This document shows, in pieces, positions 4,144 through 27,365 of a stretch of 33,743 nt of DNA. A program made the translations under genes and the position numbers. The DNA lies in NCBI GenBank assembly GCA_031273305.1, contig JAISSC010000202.1:1-33743 (forward strand). The letters run 5' to 3'. The stretch is from Flavobacteriaceae bacterium. GTDB lineage: Bacteria; Bacteroidota; Bacteroidia; Flavobacteriales; Weeksellaceae. The notes beneath the pieces are model-generated. The model saw only the letters and a program-made list of their open reading frames with translations, did not search any database and was not told the origin of the DNA. The first letter of the stretch is position 1, and each line of letters starts with the position of its first letter.

Positions 4144-5400
4144 ATGAAAACCACTACATTATTTTATTTTGTATTTATATTTTGTTCAATTCAGGCACAG
4201 GTTAATTGGGTAAAACACGGACAAAATCCGGTGTTAGTTCCTTCTAATAATCTGTATGAGCAATATATAGGAGGACCAAGTGTCATAAAAGATGAAGGAG
4301 TGTTTAAAATGTACTATGCTTCAACCGGATTGGATAAAAAGGGGAGAATAATGATGGCTACTTCTACGGATGGAGTGAATTGGGATAAAAAGGCTCAGCC
4401 TGTTTTAGATGTAAATCCCGTTGCAGGCTCGTGGGATGGTTTTTTTCTGGATTGTCCGGAGGTGATTAAAGACAATACAGGTTATAAAATGTATTATTTT
4501 GCACAACCGGGTGATGATCCCTTACAAAGTGCTATCGGATTAGCAACTTCTACTGATGGAATTAATTGGGTAAGACATCCTTCAAATCCTGTTTTGGTTT
4601 CCGGAGAAAATCCTGATGATATAGATTATTATTATATCGAATCTCCGGCTGTCACATATATGGATGGTAAATATTACATGTCGTATACGGCAGTGGATGC
4701 TTTATATTTAACCAGAACAGCTTTAGCTTTTTCTGATGATGGGATCAATTGGCAGAAGCATTCCGATAATCCGATATTTGATATTTATAAAGACCCTGAT
4801 GCCTCTAATTTATACATATGGGATGGTGGAGCCTCAAGAATGCCTACCATGCTGTCAAGAAATGAAAAGCTCGAAGTTTGGTATACCGGTATTTCAGTTT
4901 ATAATAGGTATTATCTCGATGAAACGGCATTACATATAGGTTATGCACATTCTCCGGATAAAGGAGCAACATGGATTAAATATAATAATAACCCGGTTTT
5001 GAGTACAACCTCTCCTCCTTTTACCGAATTTGAAACAAGAGGACCTGTAGCCTCCGACGTAATTTATGATGAAGATGATAAAATATATAAAATGTGGTAT
5101 GAAACAAAATATGGTTTTGGAATGGCTATCGGTATAGATGAAGCCTTACAATCGGAGGCTTATCTTACGGATGATTTACAAATATCTGTTTATCCTAATC
5201 CGGTCGAGGGAGCTTTTTTTATAAATTTAAATAATTCCCTTACCGATTATAATATCCGTATAACAGATATTTACGGCAACATTCTTTTAAGAGAAAAGAA
5301 TAAGAATTATATAGATATTTCGGGGTATGAATCAGGAGTATATATAGTAACGATAGAAACAGGAAGTAAAGAAACATCGGTTAAGATTATAAAGAAGTAA
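4144..5400 (+). CDS. Secreted glycosidase-like five-bladed propeller protein (GH43/GH32/GH130-like repeats) with T9SS type A C-terminal sorting domain
   Basis: Signal peptide MKTTTLFYFVFIFCSIQAQ; repeated 'STDGVNWDKK..PVL', 'STDGINWVRHPSNPVL', 'SDDGINWQKHSDNPIF' blades; C-terminal VYPNPVEGAFFINLN...GVYIVTIETGSKETSVKIIKK. Confidence 0.75.
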   Translation: MKTTTLFYFVFIFCSIQAQVNWVKHGQNPVLVPSNNLYEQYIGGPSVIKDEGVFKMYYASTGLDKKGRIMMATSTDGVNWDKKAQPVLDVNPVAGSWDGFFLDCPEVIKDNTGYKMYYFAQPGDDPLQSAIGLATSTDGINWVRHPSNPVLVSGENPDDIDYYYIESPAVTYMDGKYYMSYTAVDALYLTRTALAFSDDGINWQKHSDNPIFDIYKDPDASNLYIWDGGASRMPTMLSRNEKLEVWYTGISVYNRYYLDETALHIGYAHSPDKGATWIKYNNNPVLSTTSPPFTEFETRGPVASDVIYDEDDKIYKMWYETKYGFGMAIGIDEALQSEAYLTDDLQISVYPNPVEGAFFINLNNSLTDYNIRITDIYGNILLREKNKNYIDISGYESGVYIVTIETGSKETSVKIIKK

Positions 5401-5908: not shown

Positions 5909-5969
5909 ATTTTTATTAGTTTGTATGTTATTAATTATCTATAATCTTGAATCAAAAAACTCAAAAATT

Positions 5970-5997
5970 GAGGTGCCTAATTTCTTAGGCAACCTCC
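5970..5997 (-). terminator. Rho-independent terminator at the end of the cobalamin-riboswitch operon
   Basis: Minus strand GGAGGTTGCCTAAGAAATTAGGCACCTCAATTTTT: long stem then T-rich tract, just downstream of the 6027 stop. Confidence 0.75.
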
Positions 5998-6026
5998 TTT
6001 TAAGTGTTAATTGTGAAAGTAATGGG

Positions 6027-8312
6027 TTATCTTTTTATAATCTTATACGTCTTATTGTCGACTTTTATTATATAAATTCCTGAATTAAGATTAGGTACAT
6101 TTATCCGGTTCTTTCCGTTGCTTAGAGCCTGTTCGTGTACTTTGGCTCCGGTTACGGAATAAATAGATAAAGTACTTGCCTTATCCGCTTCAACAAAGAA
6201 ATATTCAGTAAATGGATTAGGATATAGTTGCAGAGACAAGGTAGTTTTTATATCGTCTGTTCCCATTAGAGAGGTCACATTTACCGTAAGTTCATGTTTA
6301 ACGATCTTACCGTTGGAATTAAAAATAATTTCAAGAATGGCAGTTCCGACCTTTACTGGGGTTATAACCAACCGGTCTTGTTCATCAATTACCGCACTAA
6401 TAACTCCGTCATTATCAGTTTCCTTAAGACTTTTTACAATTGCCAATGCAAAGTTATCATCATCGGTTACTTTGTCTTTAAGGTCAATATCGGTTACAGA
6501 ATTAATATCTATGGAAGAAGCTAATTTGGTAGAAGCTGTTTCGGATAATTTAGGCGTGGAATTATCCGGGAAAACAGGCAAAGCAGTGAACCAGTAATAA
6601 TCGTTTAATTGATAAGTATTAGATAAAACTCCCTCGTTGGTTACAATATGAACCCAGTTTTTCTGATAATGAGAGCCGTATCCGTTTTCTGTTGTGGTAA
6701 TTACCAGATTATCAGTTACCGGGTCTATTCGCAAACCGGCTCCGTAAAAGACCTGATTGTAGGAGCCTTCCTGTCCGGGAATTTGATAAAAGGATGTATT
6801 TAAAGTATCGGTATCAATATCATATTTGATTACGGTGTTTCCACCACCTATAAATCCGCCACCGCTAGTCCAATAGAGCACGTTGTTTTGTGTACTTGAA
6901 CAGAATCCTCCGGCATTCCATGCTCCCCATGAGCCTGAAATGGAAGCAGATACTGTTATTTCTTCTGTCTCTAAAGTTAGAGGATTGACCTTTATCAATT
7001 TGCTGCCGGCTCCAATCCATACGTTTCCGTCTTTGGACTGGGTGATGGTGTTAACAGATGTATTGGCTATGGTTTGTATTATTGTATGGGATATAGGGTC
7101 AATAACAAAAACGCCCGTACTTTGTTTTGTGGCAAAAACATATTTGGAAGTACGGATCATATTCCCGATTTGGTAGTTATTTCCTCCGGTTCCTTCAATA
7201 AGATTTCCGACCGTAAGGTTTTTAATGTCGAACAAGTAAATTCCTTTGGAAGTTCCTATATATCCGGTATTTTCATCCACTCCGATGAAAGTTCTTCCAT
7301 CGCCTCCGCCTATGTCGTCAAATGAGGCTTTCTTTTTTAAGGTTTTTGCATCCGCTATTACCAGTCTTCCTCCTTTTTTAGCTTCAGTTCCTTTCTGTTT
7401 GGATACCAGATAAAAATTGTCTCCGTAAATGGTGCCATATTGAGTAGTAACCCCAAGAGTATGTCCGTCATTTTCCTTTCTGTAAGCATTATAAATAAAA
7501 TCTCCATTCTCGGTTAAGAAATTAACGGAACCATCGGCATGTCCAAACCAGTCTTCATTAACAAAGAAAATTCCCTTAGTATAATCATATTCAGTTTCCT
7601 GATAAGTAGAAACGCCCGTAAAGGTTTCGCTTAATGGTTGGGAGACAAGTCCGGGGGCAAAAGACCAAGCATCCCAAGAGCCATCTTTCAATTTTCGACT
7701 GGAGGCTCCCAAGCCGGAATATCCAAAACTACCTCCTTCTTCTTTAACCCAATAAGACCAGTATGCTGAGTTCCACCCTGATTGCCAATGGTCGTTAGTG
7801 TCGGAGCTTGTCCAATTATCAAAATTATAGGAGTAAGTAGCCACTATTCCATCGACAGGATAGTCAGGATACGTAGTGTCTCCGCTCAAAATAAGGGCTA
7901 TGGTATTTTTCTGATCCAAATCAAATCCAAATCCTCCTATGGCACTTCCAAGACCGGCTCCGGTATAATATTCTAAAATGTAAAAACGAGGGTCTGCTTT
8001 GGCAATAGCATTTATCATATCGATTCCGTAAGCATCTCCGTCCCATTTATATCCCCATACCAGAGCATCTTGGGTTTTTCCGTCATTCCATTGAACCACT
8101 AAAGCGGCTTTGTTACTTCCTTCTCCTACCCAATATTCAATATCATCGAAAGAGAAAGTCTCATCTGCCGCAGATTTTAACTTTTTGGCAGATTTTAAGG
8201 TTCCTGTTTGTTCCTGATTCAGGTCATTTCTCGGAAATCCCTGAATACTGATTTGCGCTGTTATTCCCCACGATAAAAGCAGGGAAATGAACAATAAATA
8301 AACTTTTTTCAT
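6027..8312 (-). CDS. T9SS-exported DUF5074/YncE-like beta-propeller protein with an N-terminal domain seen in BtuB-associated surface proteins
   Basis: Signal peptide MKKVYLLFISLLLSWGITAQ without lipobox Cys; SFDDIEYWVGEGSNKAALVVQWNDGKTQDALVWGYKWDG domain; propeller-like region; C-terminal LQLYPNPFTEYFFVEA...GIYIIKVDNKTYKIIKR (T9SS type A). Confidence 0.75.
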   Translation of the reverse strand: MKKVYLLFISLLLSWGITAQISIQGFPRNDLNQEQTGTLKSAKKLKSAADETFSFDDIEYWVGEGSNKAALVVQWNDGKTQDALVWGYKWDGDAYGIDMINAIAKADPRFYILEYYTGAGLGSAIGGFGFDLDQKNTIALILSGDTTYPDYPVDGIVATYSYNFDNWTSSDTNDHWQSGWNSAYWSYWVKEEGGSFGYSGLGASSRKLKDGSWDAWSFAPGLVSQPLSETFTGVSTYQETEYDYTKGIFFVNEDWFGHADGSVNFLTENGDFIYNAYRKENDGHTLGVTTQYGTIYGDNFYLVSKQKGTEAKKGGRLVIADAKTLKKKASFDDIGGGDGRTFIGVDENTGYIGTSKGIYLFDIKNLTVGNLIEGTGGNNYQIGNMIRTSKYVFATKQSTGVFVIDPISHTIIQTIANTSVNTITQSKDGNVWIGAGSKLIKVNPLTLETEEITVSASISGSWGAWNAGGFCSSTQNNVLYWTSGGGFIGGGNTVIKYDIDTDTLNTSFYQIPGQEGSYNQVFYGAGLRIDPVTDNLVITTTENGYGSHYQKNWVHIVTNEGVLSNTYQLNDYYWFTALPVFPDNSTPKLSETASTKLASSIDINSVTDIDLKDKVTDDDNFALAIVKSLKETDNDGVISAVIDEQDRLVITPVKVGTAILEIIFNSNGKIVKHELTVNVTSLMGTDDIKTTLSLQLYPNPFTEYFFVEADKASTLSIYSVTGAKVHEQALSNGKNRINVPNLNSGIYIIKVDNKTYKIIKR

Positions 8313-8340: not shown

Positions 8341-9561
8341 TCAATTTATTATATGCAGGTCATAGCCTCCATTTACTTCGGTGGAAACCTCACCCAGCCA
8401 TCCTGCTTCCTGATTAGTTCCTGTATAAACTTTGACGAAATCTATCCCCGCAAGTTTTACAGGAGTTCCGTTTTTATCTACTGCCCAGCTAATGTCTATA
8501 TTGGAGGCTTCATCATTATTCGGGGCGTTATCTGCATATCCGTATTCGTAGGATTTTCCTGTCCAGTAAGTGCCGTTGCCGCTTTGGTCTATATAATTAT
8601 CTGCCAGTTTTGTGCCTGTGAAGCTCAAAGTGGGAGAGGAGACCCATTCAGGATAATAACTTTGCTTATGGTATGAATTTTTGGTTTTATAACCGGTATT
8701 TCCCTGATTGTCCGTCCATCTTATATATTGAATGTCGGTTTGCCACCCCTCTGCTCCCGGCACAGGAGTAGCGTTCGGGTCGGGTTTGTGATAAATAAGT
8801 TCATAGTTTTTAATGGTTTCGCTTTTGTGATACTCGCTTCCGGCTATTTCATACCATTCGTCATCCGGGATACCATTTTTGTTTTTATCATAAGAAACCA
8901 GAATAATTCCCGGTTCGCAATTACCTGCTTTTTGACCGGGCGTGGCGTCAGCCCAAAAAGCATTCCCGCGTATTTTAAAATCTCTTTCTCCCTGTATGTT
9001 GATAATGCTATGGTCAAATCCGAAAACGACATATCCGCCGTATCCTCCCAAACTTATCGTTCCGGGAGATGAACCTGTGATAACGCTTGCTTTGGCAATC
9101 ATACTTTCCCGCGTATCGCCCTCTGCCCATTTTGGCAGATCATTCGTAAACTGTCCGATGGCAGGGAGAAAATCGTATACCTTCGCTATGTAAGGGCTAT
9201 AAGAACCGGTTTCTTTTTCTACGGTGATGTAGGTTTGTTTCTCGATGGTTTCCCCTCCGTTTTTGACTTTTAAGGTTACCGAATAGGTTCCCGAATATAG
9301 TGAGATAAAGGAGAAATCCTTGCCTGTGGATGTAAGCGAATCTTCTTGTGTAGTCTTGCTTTTTATCGTCCATTCAAATTCGGCATTTGGGTAGGAAACC
9401 GTGTTAAGGTCAATATCCAGAATACGCAGGCGATCAACGGTATACTCTGATTTTAATCCGAGATCTTCCGGAGTTTGGGTTACATTGTCGTCATCGTCTG
9501 AACAGGAAGCTAAGAATAGCAAGCCTGTCAGGCTCCATGTTAGAATTAGTACTTTTTTCAT
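8341..9561 (-). CDS. PKD-like cell-surface lipoprotein of the cobalamin operon
   Basis: Track ORF starts at 9582; the likely start is the internal Met at 9561 (MKKVLILTWSLTGLLFLASCSDDDD), giving a clean lipoprotein signal; FEWTI...GTYSVTLKVKNGG PKD-like region. Confidence 0.72.
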   Translation of the reverse strand: MKKVLILTWSLTGLLFLASCSDDDDNVTQTPEDLGLKSEYTVDRLRILDIDLNTVSYPNAEFEWTIKSKTTQEDSLTSTGKDFSFISLYSGTYSVTLKVKNGGETIEKQTYITVEKETGSYSPYIAKVYDFLPAIGQFTNDLPKWAEGDTRESMIAKASVITGSSPGTISLGGYGGYVVFGFDHSIINIQGERDFKIRGNAFWADATPGQKAGNCEPGIILVSYDKNKNGIPDDEWYEIAGSEYHKSETIKNYELIYHKPDPNATPVPGAEGWQTDIQYIRWTDNQGNTGYKTKNSYHKQSYYPEWVSSPTLSFTGTKLADNYIDQSGNGTYWTGKSYEYGYADNAPNNDEASNIDISWAVDKNGTPVKLAGIDFVKVYTGTNQEAGWLGEVSTEVNGGYDLHIIN

Positions 9562-9604
9562 TTCTATTAAATTTAAATTCATGTATATTTATTTTTAGTT
9601 TGTT

Positions 9605-10744
9605 CTATTTCCACAGGAAAGTAAAATGTCCGGGAATGTCTCCGGTGGTTGCTTTCCATTTAAAATATCCGTCTTTGTCGAAACAGTGTAATCTTCCGGA
9701 GGTTACATAATTGGTTGCATCGGCAATAAAAATGTCTCCGTTCACAGGGTTGACGGTAATGGCATAAGGAATTACAATGTCTTTTTCAATACCGTTCTTA
9801 ATAAATTGGTCGGAAACTACTTCCTGATCGTTTATATCAATAATGCCGTAATGGGTAGTTGCTCCCTGTGCAGTCCATGCATAGCCGTAATAATACATTT
9901 TATCGTCAAAAAAACTCATATCGGAAACAACGGCATTTACCTCTTTTTCAACCGTATCGGTATCCGGGTTCAGGATAAAGGTTCTGGGCGGGTTCTTTCC
10001 ATAATCTCCTCGTGAGGTCACCCACAGCTTGTTATTTTTATCTTTTCGTATCCTCCACAGGTTGATGGCTACCTCAATTTTTTTAATCTCTTTAAAGGTA
10101 TTCAGGTCAATTACCGAAACTGTGTTATCGTAATTTGGAACCCGATAACCTCCGGAGTTGGCAACATAGAGCTTGTTATTGGCAACAACCAGTTCATCCG
10201 GTTGATAACCTACCACTTCCTTGTTTACGATTTGCAGGGTTGCCGTGTCGACTTTTACTACATATCCCGGAGGGGCATTAGGGTCAATCGAGACAGGTCC
10301 GGCATAAGAGGTAACATAGGCGTAGCCTTTATCAAATGCGATATACCGACAATTGGGGATTTGAATTTCACCTAAATGTTTGGCTGTTTTGGCATCCATT
10401 ACTTCAATGTAGTTGGATACATTGATAACCGCATACATCTTAGAGCCATAGATTTGAATGTCATTACCCACATCACCGAGACTATAAGTCACGGTAGAGT
10501 TAACTTTTGAGTAAATATTGTTGGAGAATACCCCTGTGGAATAATCAAAATAATCCAGAGAGGCTTTATTGCTTCCCATATTCCCCTCATTGAGAACATA
10601 TAGCCCCTGTATGTCTATGTTTTCCGGCGAAGTAATTGTTTCTTCGGGAGAATAGGTTGAAGGGAGGGAATCATCCTCGTTGCATGAGAGCATAAAAATG
10701 GCTATAAAAACCGGAAATACCAGTTTTTTTATCGTATTTTTCAT
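9605..10744 (-). CDS. btuG: BtuG-like surface lipoprotein, YncE/DUF5074 beta-propeller (copy 1)
   Basis: Lipobox FMLSCNEDD; GLYVLNEGNMGSNKASLDYFDYSTG, LGDVGNDIQIYGSKMYAVINVSNYIEVMDAKTAKHLGEIQIPNCR, YVANSGGYRVPNYDNTVSVIDL, LWVTSRGDY as in Bacteroides BtuG-type proteins. Confidence 0.78.
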   Translation of the reverse strand: MKNTIKKLVFPVFIAIFMLSCNEDDSLPSTYSPEETITSPENIDIQGLYVLNEGNMGSNKASLDYFDYSTGVFSNNIYSKVNSTVTYSLGDVGNDIQIYGSKMYAVINVSNYIEVMDAKTAKHLGEIQIPNCRYIAFDKGYAYVTSYAGPVSIDPNAPPGYVVKVDTATLQIVNKEVVGYQPDELVVANNKLYVANSGGYRVPNYDNTVSVIDLNTFKEIKKIEVAINLWRIRKDKNNKLWVTSRGDYGKNPPRTFILNPDTDTVEKEVNAVVSDMSFFDDKMYYYGYAWTAQGATTHYGIIDINDQEVVSDQFIKNGIEKDIVIPYAITVNPVNGDIFIADATNYVTSGRLHCFDKDGYFKWKATTGDIPGHFTFLWK

Positions 10745-10759
10745 GGTTAATATGTTAAG

Positions 10760-11884
10760 TTATTTCTTTGTCAGAAAGGTAAAATGACCGGGCGATACTC
10801 CGGCGTTCCTTACCCATTTTAAAATTCCGTTTTTGTTTATACAAAATATTTTTCCGGATATTTGGTAATCTCTTGCGTCGGCAATAAAAATGTCTCCGTT
10901 GTCGGGATTGATAATTATTCCGTATGGTACCACAATTTGGGATTCCGTATTCTCATTCATAATATGTGACGAAATCTTGTTTTGGGTATTAATGTCTATT
11001 ATCCCATAGCTGTTAACCGTTTTGTTGGCACTGTCGTAATCGGTTCCATAATAATATAGGTTATTTTCATAAAAGTCAAACCCGGTGATTGTGGCTGTGA
11101 TGGTTTTTATGACAGTATCCGTATTGGGATCAATAATGGATATGAAAGGTTTTATGTCGTTATAATTTCCTCTTGAGGTTACCCAGATATTGTTGTTCTT
11201 ATCGGCTTTTATCTTCCATAAGTTAGCCCCGACATCTATTTTTTTGACTTCCTGAAAGGAAGATAAATCTATAACAGATACGGTTGTGTCATAACTTTCG
11301 GGAGTGTATCCTCCGGAATTGGCAACATAAAGTTTATCATTAACTACGGTCATTTCTTCGGGTTGATACCCTACGGATACATTATTTACAATGGATAAAT
11401 TGGTTGTATCAATTTTAACAATAGTTCCCAACTGCGAATTGTTGGATTGCGGAGTGCCTGCAAAAGAGGAAACATAGGCATAACCTTTGTCAAAGGTAAC
11501 AGACCTGCAATTCGGAATCTGGATTTTTCCTAAATGTTTGGCTGTTTTGGCTTCCATTACCTCTACGTAATTGGAATTATTAATAACGGCATACATTTTG
11601 GAGCCGTAGATATTAATATCGTTCCCGACATCTCCCAGCACTCCCTCATTAGGGTTTACCCATCCGAAATAGTCATTCGTGTAGTTTCCGCTGTCATAGT
11701 CGTAATAAGTAAGTGAGGCTTCATTGCGCCCCCAGCCTCCCTCGCTAAGAATATATAATCCTCTGGAAGCTCCGGGTTCGGGGGTGATGATGTCATCTCC
11801 GGAGTTTTCATACTTGTCGTCATCGCTACAGGATAGCAACCCAAGTAAGATAAAATAAATAAATAAAAAATTTCTTAATCTCAT
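10760..11884 (-). CDS. btuG: BtuG-like surface lipoprotein, YncE/DUF5074 beta-propeller (copy 2)
   Basis: Paralogue of the 9605 gene: lipobox LLSCSDDDK; GLYILSEGGWGRNEASLTYYDYDSG, LGDVGNDINIYGSKMYAVINNSNYVEVMEAKTAKHLGKIQIPNCR, YVANSGGYTPESYDTTVSVIDL. Confidence 0.77.
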   Translation of the reverse strand: MRLRNFLFIYFILLGLLSCSDDDKYENSGDDIITPEPGASRGLYILSEGGWGRNEASLTYYDYDSGNYTNDYFGWVNPNEGVLGDVGNDINIYGSKMYAVINNSNYVEVMEAKTAKHLGKIQIPNCRSVTFDKGYAYVSSFAGTPQSNNSQLGTIVKIDTTNLSIVNNVSVGYQPEEMTVVNDKLYVANSGGYTPESYDTTVSVIDLSSFQEVKKIDVGANLWKIKADKNNNIWVTSRGNYNDIKPFISIIDPNTDTVIKTITATITGFDFYENNLYYYGTDYDSANKTVNSYGIIDINTQNKISSHIMNENTESQIVVPYGIIINPDNGDIFIADARDYQISGKIFCINKNGILKWVRNAGVSPGHFTFLTKK

Positions 11885-11903: not shown

Positions 11904-13937
11904 TTATATGTTCATTTGTACTGAAATTCTGTAATTCCGTCCGGGCATAGGATAATTCAATACTATATCATAGTTCCGGTTAAGAATATTATTGACCTCT
12001 AAAGCAACTTTTAATTTTAGTTTATCCAGAGGTATTTCTTTAGATATAAGCAAATCATGGCTAAACCATGCTTTTACATAATTATTCGGGCTGTTCTCAG
12101 GCGAATTATATCGTTCTCCGGTATAGATAAAGCTATAATTCAGATTCCAGTCTTTGTATGCCGTGTTGATGAGAAAACTACCGCTGTGCCACGGAATATA
12201 GGGAATCTGGTCTTTGTATTCCATAGTTAAATTTTGAGCTTTTTCATATGTATAAGAAAGCCTTGTGTTGAGCGAAAGGTTTTTGGAAAGAGACCATGAA
12301 GACCGTGCGGAAACATCAATCCCTCTGATAAGTACTTCTCCCATGTTTATCATAGTCCAGCGGAATTGTTGCCCTTTGGGATACGCAATGATCTTATCTT
12401 TCACCTCGTTGTAATAAGCATCAAGCACCAGATTGATATTCCTCAATGATCCGGATTTAAAATCTTTGTTATATTCAATTCCTATATCGTATTGAGCCGT
12501 GTATTCAGGTTTTAAAAGAGAGTTGCCCAAGTCTGTATAATACAGGTCATTAAAGGTAGGCATACGGAAAATACGTTTATAAAAGGCATGTATATTAAGT
12601 TCTCTGTTTTTGAAAAGTTCGTAATTTAAGAAAACGGTAGGGGTAAATTCTTGTTTATCAGGAGACGGAGCCGCACGTTCGTCATTTTTAACATCTTCCT
12701 GAACGAAGGTTCCTAAAATACTGGTTTGAAATTTGAACCTGTTAAAACGAATATTGGAAGCTAGTGCGACCAATTCCGTATTCCTTTCGGGATAAACAAA
12801 AAGTTTTAAATTGGCATCCATAGTGTTGTACTGATAGTCTGCGGAAAGTGCAATATCCCAAAAGGAGAACAGTGAGTATTGCTGGGCGGTGGAAATATAA
12901 AATTCTTCCTGTTTAAAGGTGTTATCCAGAAAATCCGACTGCACGAGAGAGCCTTGTATGTAGTCAAGGACAAGACGGTAAAAATGGGTATAGTCGTTGG
13001 CATATTTGGCATTGACCAAAATTTTATATTTGTGTGTTATCTCTTTTTCAAATGAACCTTGAAGGAAGAAATTACGATCCCATTGTTTGGAACTACTATT
13101 AAACACATTTTTGACAATAGCTCCCGGAATTCCCCGCTCGGAATCATAATAATATCCTTTTAAATTCCAGGTTCCTTTGTTGAGTTTCCCAAACAACCCG
13201 ACCTCTACACGGAAAGCACTGATATTCCCGTTTTGCCTGATTCCAATAGTATCCCAATGGTCTTTTCTATGTCGGAATTTGTATTTTCCGTTAGAGTTTA
13301 TGTATTCTGTATTTAGGGAAAGGTTAATGTTTTCGGAAAGTTTCTGTTCCCATAAAACCGACGGATTTATCAGGGCAAAGGAACCGGAACGGTAGTTTGC
13401 ACTAAGATTTGTTCTTTTATCGTTTTCAAATTTCGGTTTTTTAGTAGTCATATAAATGCTTCCGGCAGAACCAAAGTCTTTAGCGGATTGAAATATCTGG
13501 CTTTTTTGTCCGTTATATAAAGAAACGGACTCCATATTGTCCAGAGAAAATTTACCCAGATCAACGGTTCCGTTCTGGGCATTTCCCAACTGTATCCCAT
13601 CGTAAAAAACGCCTACGTGCTGACTTCCCATTCCCCGAATATTTACGGTTTTCATTCCTCCGACTCCTCCATAATCCTTTAGTTGTATTCCCGAAAAATA
13701 ACGTAGGGCATCTGATACCGACGAAGCACCGGTTAGGTTTTGCAGTTCTTTTCCTGAAAGTTCCTGATATGAAATGATACCTTTGTTCTCCCTCTTTCCG
13801 ATAGTAATGATCTCCTGAAGTTCGGTAATTTTAGTGCTGTCCTTTCGTTCTTTTTGTTCTTGTGAAAAAAGAATGAGAGTGAGAATACTAAAAATCTGGG
13901 TTAGTAAAAGTTTGATATTTTTATGTTTGTGTATCAT
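11904..13937 (-). CDS. btuB: TonB-dependent outer-membrane receptor, BtuB-like (cobalamin/corrinoid)
   Basis: Plug domain (LQEIITIGKRE..., GMKTVNIRGMGSQHVGVFYDGIQLGNAQNGTVDLGKFSLDNMESVSLYNG), beta-barrel C-terminus; directly downstream of a cobalamin riboswitch. Confidence 0.85.
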   Translation of the reverse strand: MIHKHKNIKLLLTQIFSILTLILFSQEQKERKDSTKITELQEIITIGKRENKGIISYQELSGKELQNLTGASSVSDALRYFSGIQLKDYGGVGGMKTVNIRGMGSQHVGVFYDGIQLGNAQNGTVDLGKFSLDNMESVSLYNGQKSQIFQSAKDFGSAGSIYMTTKKPKFENDKRTNLSANYRSGSFALINPSVLWEQKLSENINLSLNTEYINSNGKYKFRHRKDHWDTIGIRQNGNISAFRVEVGLFGKLNKGTWNLKGYYYDSERGIPGAIVKNVFNSSSKQWDRNFFLQGSFEKEITHKYKILVNAKYANDYTHFYRLVLDYIQGSLVQSDFLDNTFKQEEFYISTAQQYSLFSFWDIALSADYQYNTMDANLKLFVYPERNTELVALASNIRFNRFKFQTSILGTFVQEDVKNDERAAPSPDKQEFTPTVFLNYELFKNRELNIHAFYKRIFRMPTFNDLYYTDLGNSLLKPEYTAQYDIGIEYNKDFKSGSLRNINLVLDAYYNEVKDKIIAYPKGQQFRWTMINMGEVLIRGIDVSARSSWSLSKNLSLNTRLSYTYEKAQNLTMEYKDQIPYIPWHSGSFLINTAYKDWNLNYSFIYTGERYNSPENSPNNYVKAWFSHDLLISKEIPLDKLKLKVALEVNNILNRNYDIVLNYPMPGRNYRISVQMNI

Positions 13938-14064
13938 TTTCGCTCATTAATTATATTTAAAACATAATTAATCGCTTCATGAAAAATAAACATGAAAAGT
14001 AGAGATGAAATACTTTTGATGTTTTTAGCCTTGTTCCACGAAAGCTATTAACTATGTAATAATG

Positions 14065-14290
14065 TTTGGCAGGTTTTCTGACTTACTCCATTTTAAGAAG
14101 CCTTCCCAAGAATATTTCTCAGTGGCAGTTAAATCTTAAAATGCTGTTATGAGATTACAGCAGCGGGCCTGTTCCGGATTCTCACCGGATTCCCTTTTAA
14201 ATTTGCAATTTTTTTAGTTAATGAATCAGCATAGATAAAAAACAGTAACTATTTAGCTCATTCATTATTCACTATAAATTGCAAATACCA
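14065..14290 (-). ncRNA. Cobalamin riboswitch (AdoCbl-type B12 element)
   Basis: Minus strand GGTATTTGCAAT...ATTGCAAATTTAAAAGGGAATCCGGTGAGAATCCGGAACAGGCCCGCTGCTGTAATC...TGCCACTGAG...TGGGAAGGCTTC...GTAAGTCAGAAAACCTGCCA: conserved B12-box and core elements. Confidence 0.93.
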
Positions 14291-25876: not shown

Positions 25877-25949
25877 GACTTGGTAGCTCAGTTGGTAGAG
25901 CACAACACTTTTAATGTTGGGGTCCTGGGTTCGAGCCCCAGCCAAGTCA
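25877..25949 (+). tRNA. tRNA-Lys (anticodon TTT), copy 1
   Basis: Cloverleaf: acceptor GACTTGG/CCAAGTC, anticodon stem-loop CAACA-CTTTTAA-TGTTG, T-loop GGTTCGAGCCC. Confidence 0.96.
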
Positions 25950-25984
25950 CTTTAGATAAAAAAACGTAATCGAGGTTAAAGAAA

Positions 25985-26032
25985 GATTTGGTAGAGCAAC
26001 TGACTCTTAATCAGTGGGTCTTTTCGGAGTCA
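25985..26032 (+). pseudogene. Chimeric, internally deleted tRNA-Lys relic (48 nt; CTT anticodon stem-loop, T-arm and most of D-arm missing)
   Basis: GATTTGGTAGAGCAACTGACTCTTAATCAGTGGGTCTTTTCGGAGTCA; 5' resembles tRNA-Lys(TTT) collapsed at TTGGTAG, 3' matches tRNA-Lys(CTT) minus AAGGGTTCGACCCCC. Confidence 0.85.
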
Positions 26033-26066
26033 CTTTAGATAAAAAACATAATCGAGGTTAAAGAAA

Positions 26067-26139
26067 GACCTGGTAGCTCAGTTGGTAGAGCACAACACTT
26101 TTAATGTTGGGGTCCTGGGTTCGAGCCCCAGCCAGGTCA
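26067..26139 (+). tRNA. tRNA-Lys (anticodon TTT), copy 2
   Basis: Same as copy 1 except acceptor GACCTGG/CCAGGTC. Confidence 0.96.
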
Positions 26140-26181
26140 CAAAGAGTTGCTTGAGTGTAATCTCAGGCTTTTCTTGTTTTA

Positions 26182-26254
26182 GGCTCCGTAGCTCAGTTGG
26201 TAGAGCAACTGACTCTTAATCAGTGGGTCAAGGGTTCGACCCCCTTCGGAGTCA
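26182..26254 (+). tRNA. tRNA-Lys (anticodon CTT)
   Basis: Acceptor GGCTCCG/CGGAGTC, anticodon stem-loop ACTGA-CTCTTAA-TCAGT, T-arm AGGGTTCGACCCCCT. Confidence 0.95.
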
Positions 26255-26366: not shown

Positions 26367-27365
26367 TTATTTTTTTGTTGAATATGCCTGTTCAGGATGA
26401 TTGATCATTTCAGGATATTTATATTTTAACAGGTTATCTTCTAATAATGGCTTTATAAAATTCCGAGCAATATACTTTTCAGTTCTACCTAATAATTCTG
26501 CAAGTTCTCTTTTTTTGAAATCTCTAATCGAACATATTTCTAAAATTATATTTGATATTTCATTTTTATCATTAGCTCTATGACCCAAATTATTAATCTT
26601 TTCTTGTAAATCTTTAGGTATAGGTTGTGCACTAAGGTCGGTAGGTTGTGCACTAAGGTTAGTAGGTTGTGCACTAAGGTCAGTAGGTTGGGCACTAAGG
26701 TCGGTAGGTTGGGCACTAAGGTCAGTAGGTTGGGCACTAAGGTTGGTAGGTTGGGCACTAAGGTCGGTAGGTTGGGCACTAAGGTTGGTAGGTTGGGCAC
26801 TAAGGTCAGTAGGTTGGGCACTAAGGTTGGTAGGTTGGGCACTAAGGTATTTTTCATTATTTATCAATGATATTAATGATTGGGAAGGAACGTAATAGGT
26901 AAACTTATTTTTACCTCTTTGTTCCAATAATTTCAATTCTTTCAATTTTCTTAAGTCTTTGTTTGATATTATAGACTTAGTACCATTTATTTGACGAGCA
27001 GCAGAATTATCAATAGCTCTTACTTCTCTAATAAAAATTAATATTCTTTTTTGATTATCATTTAATCGAAATGTATCAAATAATTTAAGCCATTCCAAAT
27101 CCTCTTCATTCAATAAGTGATGTAAAAGTAATCGTACAGTGAATCTATTATCTTCTCTGTTGCTTTCAAAAGTAGGAGGCAACATACCAAAGTTCTCCAT
27201 TAATTTTCTCATTGTTCTTATACCACTTCCTTTTGTTTCAGCTAAATTTGTTTCATGGAAAATGGCTGCTATAAACGGGTTTCTGTTTATAGATCCGGGT
27301 TCGCCTAATTTATCTTCTGTTTTTAAGGAAAAACCGGGATTGCTGATTTCAATTCTCTCTGGTAC
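26367..27365 (-). pseudogene. 5'-truncated AlbA_2/HATPase_c_4-type ATP-binding (transcriptional regulator-like) protein with C-terminal winged-helix segments
   Basis: Track ORF starts at Met 27212, but the frame is open to an in-frame TAA at 27366-27368 and encodes VPERIEISNPGFSLKTEDKLGEPGSINRNPFIAAIFHETNLAETKGSGIRTMRKLMENFG upstream: the tail of the HATPase domain (EI.NPG ... RNP.IA ... GSGI) with no N-terminal part. Confidence 0.7.
26625..26855. repeat. 21-bp in-frame tandem repeat, about 11 units, encoding LSAQPT[N/D]
   Basis: Consensus GTAGGTTGGGCACTAAGGTCG; protein (SAQPT[ND]L)n within the 26367 ORF. Confidence 0.93.

Follow-up and report, generated by a model that had tools for sequence, protein, structure and literature searches.

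We propose that the last gene of a cobalamin-riboswitch operon in a Flavobacteriaceae bacterium encodes a cobamide capture protein, delivered by the T9SS and displayed on the cell surface, with two candidate ligand-binding modules and hand-over to BtuH, BtuG and BtuB; we consider this account likely. The gene occupies positions 6027..8312 on the minus strand of the 33,743-nucleotide stretch of DNA that was analyzed (hereafter, the window), and its 761-aa ORF combines a transcobalamin-beta-like domain, a BtuK propeller, an Ig-like linker and a sorting tail. An earlier interpretation made from the DNA letters (hereafter, the sequence-only reading) had suggested B12 scavenging at the cell surface, which is now strongly supported by the riboswitch operon, its retention in 72 of 80 relatives, homology to BtuK1 and the presence of the transcobalamin-like domain downstream of cobalamin riboswitches.

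Computational annotation established an operon, entirely on the minus strand, with the order cobalamin riboswitch, btuB, btuG, btuG, btuH, the gene for the 761-aa protein (last) and terminator. The riboswitch at the operon head (14051..14248) matches RF00174 over its full length (93.2 bits, E = 3.9e-22) and is the only match to this family in the whole host genome, a 2.14-Mb draft that is 84% complete. Behind it lie a 677-aa BtuB-type TonB-dependent B12 transporter (11904..13937; PDB 8blw_A, BtuB1, E = 1.1e-130), whose match to TIGR01779 (3e-34) falls under the curated cut-off of that model, and two BtuG-like surface lipoproteins. The first of these (374 aa; 10760..11884; lipobox LLSCSDDD) is a YncE-like propeller with a weak DUF5074 match (3e-10), and the second (379 aa; 9605..10744; lipobox MLSCNEDD) matches PDB 8blw_B (BtuG1) at 3.2e-45. 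The next gene encodes a putative BtuH-like B12-binding lipoprotein (413 aa; 8341..9582; lipobox LASCSDDDD) with an N-terminal PKD-like domain; 8blw_B matches its C-terminal half (2.8e-72), and it also matches 7biz (BtuH2; 1.5e-44). Gaps between the operon genes measure 15–28 nt. An intrinsic terminator, consisting of a hairpin and a T-run (5955..5998, minus strand), closes the operon, and the region 5945–6030 folds at −23.1 kcal/mol (z = −4.5 relative to shuffles). The claim that the operon neighbours are lipoproteins was confirmed by the lipoboxes and by the acidic residues that follow them in both BtuG proteins and in BtuH. The BtuG-type lipoproteins upstream of the subject gene number two in the window, not one; most relatives have one where the window has this tandem (9605–11884), and a genome of the same genus, G067, also has two (L118).

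Several other features of the window and its host genome were recorded. The genome carries the cobalamin-dependent methionine synthase domain (MetH), an indication of B12 use. Just past the operon end, the plus strand encodes a T9SS-tailed glycoside hydrolase-like protein with a GH32/GH130-type propeller (4144–5400), and at 26367–27212 a 281-aa ORF with ~12 tandem LSAQPT(D/N) repeats in mid-protein adjoins a cluster of three tRNAs (25877–26254).

The export signals of the 761-aa protein differ from those of its neighbours, as the sequence-only reading had held in describing a plain signal peptide and a type A T9SS tail. The N-terminus, MKKVYLLFISLLLSWGITAQ, forms a type I signal peptide (residues 1–20; 8253..8312) without a lipobox, and residues 1–40 contain no cysteine. 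The extreme C-terminus (residues 696–761; 6030..6227) is a T9SS type A sorting domain that matches Por_Secre_tail (PF18962, E = 1.9e-12) in Pfam, TIGR04183 (E = 1.2e-11) in NCBIfam and the solved T9SS tails 8glj and 8glk in the PDB. Between these signals lie the 'YWVGEGSNKAALVVQWNDGK' domain (hereafter, the N-domain; about residues 50–240; 7593..8165), which matched no family in a Pfam scan, a DUF5074/BtuK-type beta-propeller (residues 246–582; 6567..7577; PF16819, E = 3.8e-113) and a beta-sandwich linker (residues ~590–683; 6264..6545) that has no Pfam match and is modelled by AF2 with strands at 600–679 (pLDDT 82–92). The fusion of an unnamed N-terminal domain to a DUF5074 propeller, also part of the sequence-only reading, is thereby borne out; that reading recognised neither a BtuK in the propeller nor a resemblance of the N-domain to transcobalamin. 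Since the lipoprotein signal peptide that characterizes BtuK is absent here and a T9SS tail stands in its place, with no cysteine in the first 40 residues, we term the protein BtuK-like with a different export route.

A whole-genome scan recovered 80 named loci matching the 761-aa protein, in genera that include Chryseobacterium, Flavobacterium, Epilithonimonas, Empedobacter and Soonwooa. The T9SS tail is present in all 80 relatives and the N-domain in 79, indicating that the 761-aa ORF did not arise by chance. The full arrangement, in which B12 box, btuB, btuG and btuH precede a gene that encodes N-domain, propeller and tail, is found in the same order in 72 of the 80. A covariance model detected the riboswitch in three further relatives; among the other five, contig ends cut off four, and one (L049) has no recognisable riboswitch or btuB. 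The closest relative (L103/L013; 68–71% identical) has lost the N-domain, so this domain is dispensable in some lineages. A plasmid search with the whole protein returned one distant Bacteroides DUF5074 match, a PKD and DUF5074 lipoprotein behind a TonB receptor, and a second match limited to the tail. Separately, a genome of the Flavobacterium family encodes a lone PKD and BtuK lipoprotein (L164:5892-7211), for which there is a dedicated cobalamin riboswitch (7722-7530).

The best PDB sequence match of the propeller is 9s6c (7e-16 with the single sequence; 1.2e-19 with the family profile). When the AF2 model of the 761-aa protein (mean pLDDT 81) was used in a fold search, 9s6c chains, labelled 'B12 Binding protein - BtuK1', again ranked first (TMt 0.80), followed by BT1487; the BT1487 structure 4r5o (BtuK2) gave no sequence match to the window family at E ≤ 10. 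By these best sequence and predicted-fold matches to BtuK1, the propeller is assigned to BtuK, at about 23% identity. Like BtuK1 and BtuK2 (BT_1486 and BT_1487), the 761-aa protein is exported, has a DUF5074-type beta-propeller and belongs to a cobalamin-riboswitch-controlled uptake operon, a feature by which BtuK proteins are recognized; unlike these lipoproteins, it begins with a plain signal peptide, ends in a T9SS tail and in addition includes a transcobalamin-like domain.

BtuK1 of Bacteroides thetaiotaomicron binds cobalamin with an affinity from nM to pM depending on the method, while its paralogue BtuK2 (PDB 4r5o) showed no cobalamin binding (PMC12751083). The sequence match to BtuK1, and not to BT1487, thus favours cobalamin binding by the propeller of the window protein without proving it. 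By analogy with BtuK2, a BtuK-type propeller need not bind cobalamin, and this counts against our preferred explanation. It also leaves room for an accessory surface protein that does not bind B12 and instead, when B12 is limiting, helps with adhesion, the assembly of complexes or the release of vesicles. Such a role would fit the observations that neither BtuK2 nor BtuL bound cobalamin and that BtuL promoted early vesicle release (PMC12751083), as well as the grouping of a DUF5074 protein with YncE-family and cell-surface proteins in vesicles of Elizabethkingia anophelis (PMC9431301). However, the window propeller is closer in sequence to the binding paralogue than to BtuK2, and the N-domain resembles a B12-binding domain and sits downstream of cobalamin riboswitches, making an accessory role quite improbable.

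The N-domain was modelled alone by AF2 with 52 relatives (pLDDT 92, pTM 0.90). Resemblance of its C-terminal motif to the DUF4430/transcobalamin pattern had been noted before any fold search. In a Foldseek search of the model against 350,542 PDB chains, transcobalamin, intrinsic factor and haptocorrin made up 17 of the 18 top matches, with probabilities up to 0.99 and weak single E-values (best 0.045); against the isolated human transcobalamin beta-domain, TMt was 0.63–0.65. Because the 17 chains belong to one family, we counted them as one family-level match, which in the predicted model is to the B12-carrier family and concerns a domain encoded inside a B12 operon. Like the transcobalamin-like SLBB clade, the predicted model has a beta-grasp core in which a beta-hairpin is inserted behind the helix. 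It shares with the beta-domains of transcobalamin, intrinsic factor and haptocorrin the overall fold, this two-strand insert and a conserved glycine after strand 2, but the N-domain is bacterial and does not match the solved proteins by sequence. Searched by sequence, neither the PDB nor Pfam yielded any match to the domain.

Distant sequence links may point in the same direction. Marginal tblastn matches were found in Streptomyces and Embleya, and in Streptomyces proteins the N-domain-like region is joined to a Prenyltrans alpha/alpha toroid, which is the transcobalamin architecture; the 761-aa protein differs from transcobalamin, and from these actinobacterial proteins that share its N-domain, in having a propeller and no toroid. 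HHalign aligned the window family with the actinobacterial (Streptomyces/Embleya) domain at E = 1.5e-11 over 40 columns, and a broad N-domain alignment with DUF4430 sequences at E = 1.7e-4 over 36 columns in a single pairwise run; reversed controls gave E of about 0.6. These significant links concern mainly the last two strands (about 40 residues), which are also the part that aligns with the bacterial transcobalamin-like domains of DUF4430 (PF14478), whereas Pfam scans of N-domain members gave no match to PF14478. Narrow alignments (A3 and A4) gave no meaningful HHalign match to one DUF4430 sequence; the broader N-domain alignment alone gave one. DUF4430 itself was found in one of 396 genomes of the phylum, and a search of viral contigs with a DUF4430 query returned nothing. 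One actinobacterial protein, from Streptomyces sp. SAT1 (L218:4668-7403), combines the N-domain-like region with an alpha/alpha toroid, has a cobalamin riboswitch match (41.8 bits) upstream and adjoins ECF transporter genes; it looks like a full bacterial transcobalamin. Bacteroidota do not appear in the list given for the transcobalamin-like clade when the SLBB superfamily was described by Burroughs et al. in 2007 (PMC1796856).

The genomic setting of the N-domain was analyzed with a profile search of 247 genomes of the order to which genome G380 belongs, which found the domain in 27. We examined 20 loci picked solely by their match to the N-domain profile. Of these, 19 have a cobalamin riboswitch upstream of the gene and on its strand, and in the twentieth (L209) the contig begins 243 nt before the gene; all four further N-domain loci (L115, L116, L131 and L133) are likewise preceded by a cobalamin riboswitch. 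In 18 cases no other gene intervenes between the riboswitch and the N-domain gene. Architectures include a T9SS tail on one N-domain or on tandem N-domains, N-domain and BtuK with Big_2 repeats, and the N-domain as a lipoprotein. The N-domain recurs across Bacteroidota and marks the B12 regulon. At five loci (L203:6198-7190, L204:9779-10777, L208:10078-11052, L211:10080-11069 and L213:7911-8939) a gene behind that of the N-domain, governed by the same cobalamin riboswitch, encodes another T9SS-tailed protein (about 330 aa) for which Pfam offers no further convincing match; it often lies directly before btuB. Counterparts at L207 and L212 show a very weak BtuH match (E ~1e-3), and the protein may be a divergent T9SS-exported BtuH.

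A different ligand for the N-domain has to be weighed against these findings. The domain could bind something else that matters when B12 is scarce, such as a polysaccharide, a host B12 carrier or another surface protein, and merely target the BtuK propeller. Members of the SLBB superfamily bind varied ligands (PMC1796856), and the N-domain is found by itself, in tandem copies and joined to Big_2/Ig-like modules. Yet its resemblance is to the transcobalamin clade in particular, and its actinobacterial version is joined to an alpha/alpha toroid, with an ECF transporter close by; we therefore regard another ligand as unlikely.

The predicted anchoring of the protein varies among relatives. In one genus (g20) the same operon position is occupied by a 464-aa lipoprotein without tail and without N-domain; SprA was not found in a genome of this genus (G042), and the four g20 genomes with the operon gene had no other T9SS-tail matches. 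An apparent '3 TAA inside' the g20 gene was rejected as recoding, the alignment having overrun the natural stop. In G380 a btuB-btuG-btuH operon encodes the N-domain and BtuK as separate lipoproteins side by side, whereas in the window they are fused and tailed; G091 has the N-domain as a gene of its own, under its own riboswitch. Exposure beyond the outer membrane is thus kept by T9SS tail or lipid anchor according to lineage, and the route changes. BtuH with a T9SS tail and no lipobox was also observed in several genomes of the order Bacteroidales (L195:9600-10763, L196:7556-8752 and L199:7569-9077).

These anchor swaps bear on the proposal of the sequence-only reading that the protein is a secreted corrinophore. 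In that account the T9SS frees the protein from the cell, and it binds cobamides in the medium before returning to BtuG/BtuB as a hemophore does with heme. The plain signal peptide and type A tail would allow release, and an N-domain protein with a signal peptide and neither tail nor lipobox exists (L115:10652-11587). B. theta vesicles with BtuJ deliver B12, and the C-terminal targeting motif IPR026444 occurs in 229 of 824 DUF4465 B12-binder sequences (PMC12751083). However, the same modules are lipid-attached in G380 and in lineages where no T9SS was detected, so that tethering is the common feature, which suggests that the shared function lies in attachment to the surface; no domain that might act as receptor for a returning carrier was recognised. 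The absence of T9SS components from the genome had been named as grounds for abandoning the earlier proposal altogether; since the host genome carries SprA, as a C-terminal fragment at a contig end (TIGR04189), and a C25/PorU-type peptidase, this objection fails. The peptidase also argues against release, as enzymes of the C25/PorU type couple type A cargo to A-LPS in other species. With a T9SS tail in some lineages and a lipid anchor in others, display on the surface is more probable than a corrinophore that diffuses freely, and the comparison with a hemophore, unsupported in view of the g20 lipoprotein and the paired lipoproteins of G380, is decidedly unlikely to hold.

Under the surface-capture model that we prefer, low intracellular cobalamin would relieve the riboswitch, so that the 761-aa protein is made; it would then pass through Sec and be carried by the T9SS across the outer membrane for display on the cell surface. 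There, the N-domain and/or the BtuK-type propeller would catch scarce cobamides outside the cell and hand them to the neighbouring lipoproteins BtuH and BtuG, from which they would travel through BtuB into the periplasm. Computation establishes the operon with its riboswitch and terminator, the homologies of the domains, the T9SS tail, the presence of T9SS components in the host genome and the conservation of the locus; we infer cobamide binding by either module, anchoring to A-LPS in preference to release, and hand-over to BtuG/BtuB. A more far-reaching version is conceivable, although rather unlikely: the T9SS might deploy a Bacteroidota family of riboswitch-controlled, transcobalamin-like B12 carriers that Pfam does not label as such; in the window protein the BtuK propeller would stand in for the toroid and both domains would clamp one cobamide, with some members of the family possibly shed as diffusible corrinophores.

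BtuK, BtuJ, BtuG and BtuH are already known (PMC12751083, PMC13398666, PMC10404256, PMC8941943). BtuG and BtuH are partners of the 761-aa protein in the same operon and capture B12 at the surface (PMC10404256, PMC8941943), but they are lipid-anchored, and the BtuG propeller matches DUF5074 weakly. BtuJ (DUF4465) is likewise an extracellular B12 capture protein of the same kind of operon, and C-terminal targeting motifs on B12 binders were previously noted for DUF4465 (PMC12751083); it is, however, a beta-jellyroll of an unrelated family. The Pfam scan of the 761-aa protein gave no match to PF14717 (DUF4465/BtuJ), and no DUF4465/BtuJ was found in the host genome. Our literature search, whose coverage lay largely outside subscription journals, returned no account of a T9SS-tailed BtuK or of the N-domain.

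With these results, two components of B12 uptake operons that had been uncharacterised in environmental and host-associated Bacteroidota gain a testable identity, one as a T9SS-delivered BtuK and the other as a domain, linked to riboswitches, with a resemblance to the half of transcobalamin and intrinsic factor that binds B12. The findings suggest that many Bacteroidota carry B12 catchers of an animal-like kind on the cell surface. Should the N-domain bind cobamides, the capture of B12 by Bacteroidota would reach beyond lipoproteins, and a bacterial group would be added to the question of the origin of animal transcobalamin raised by Burroughs et al.
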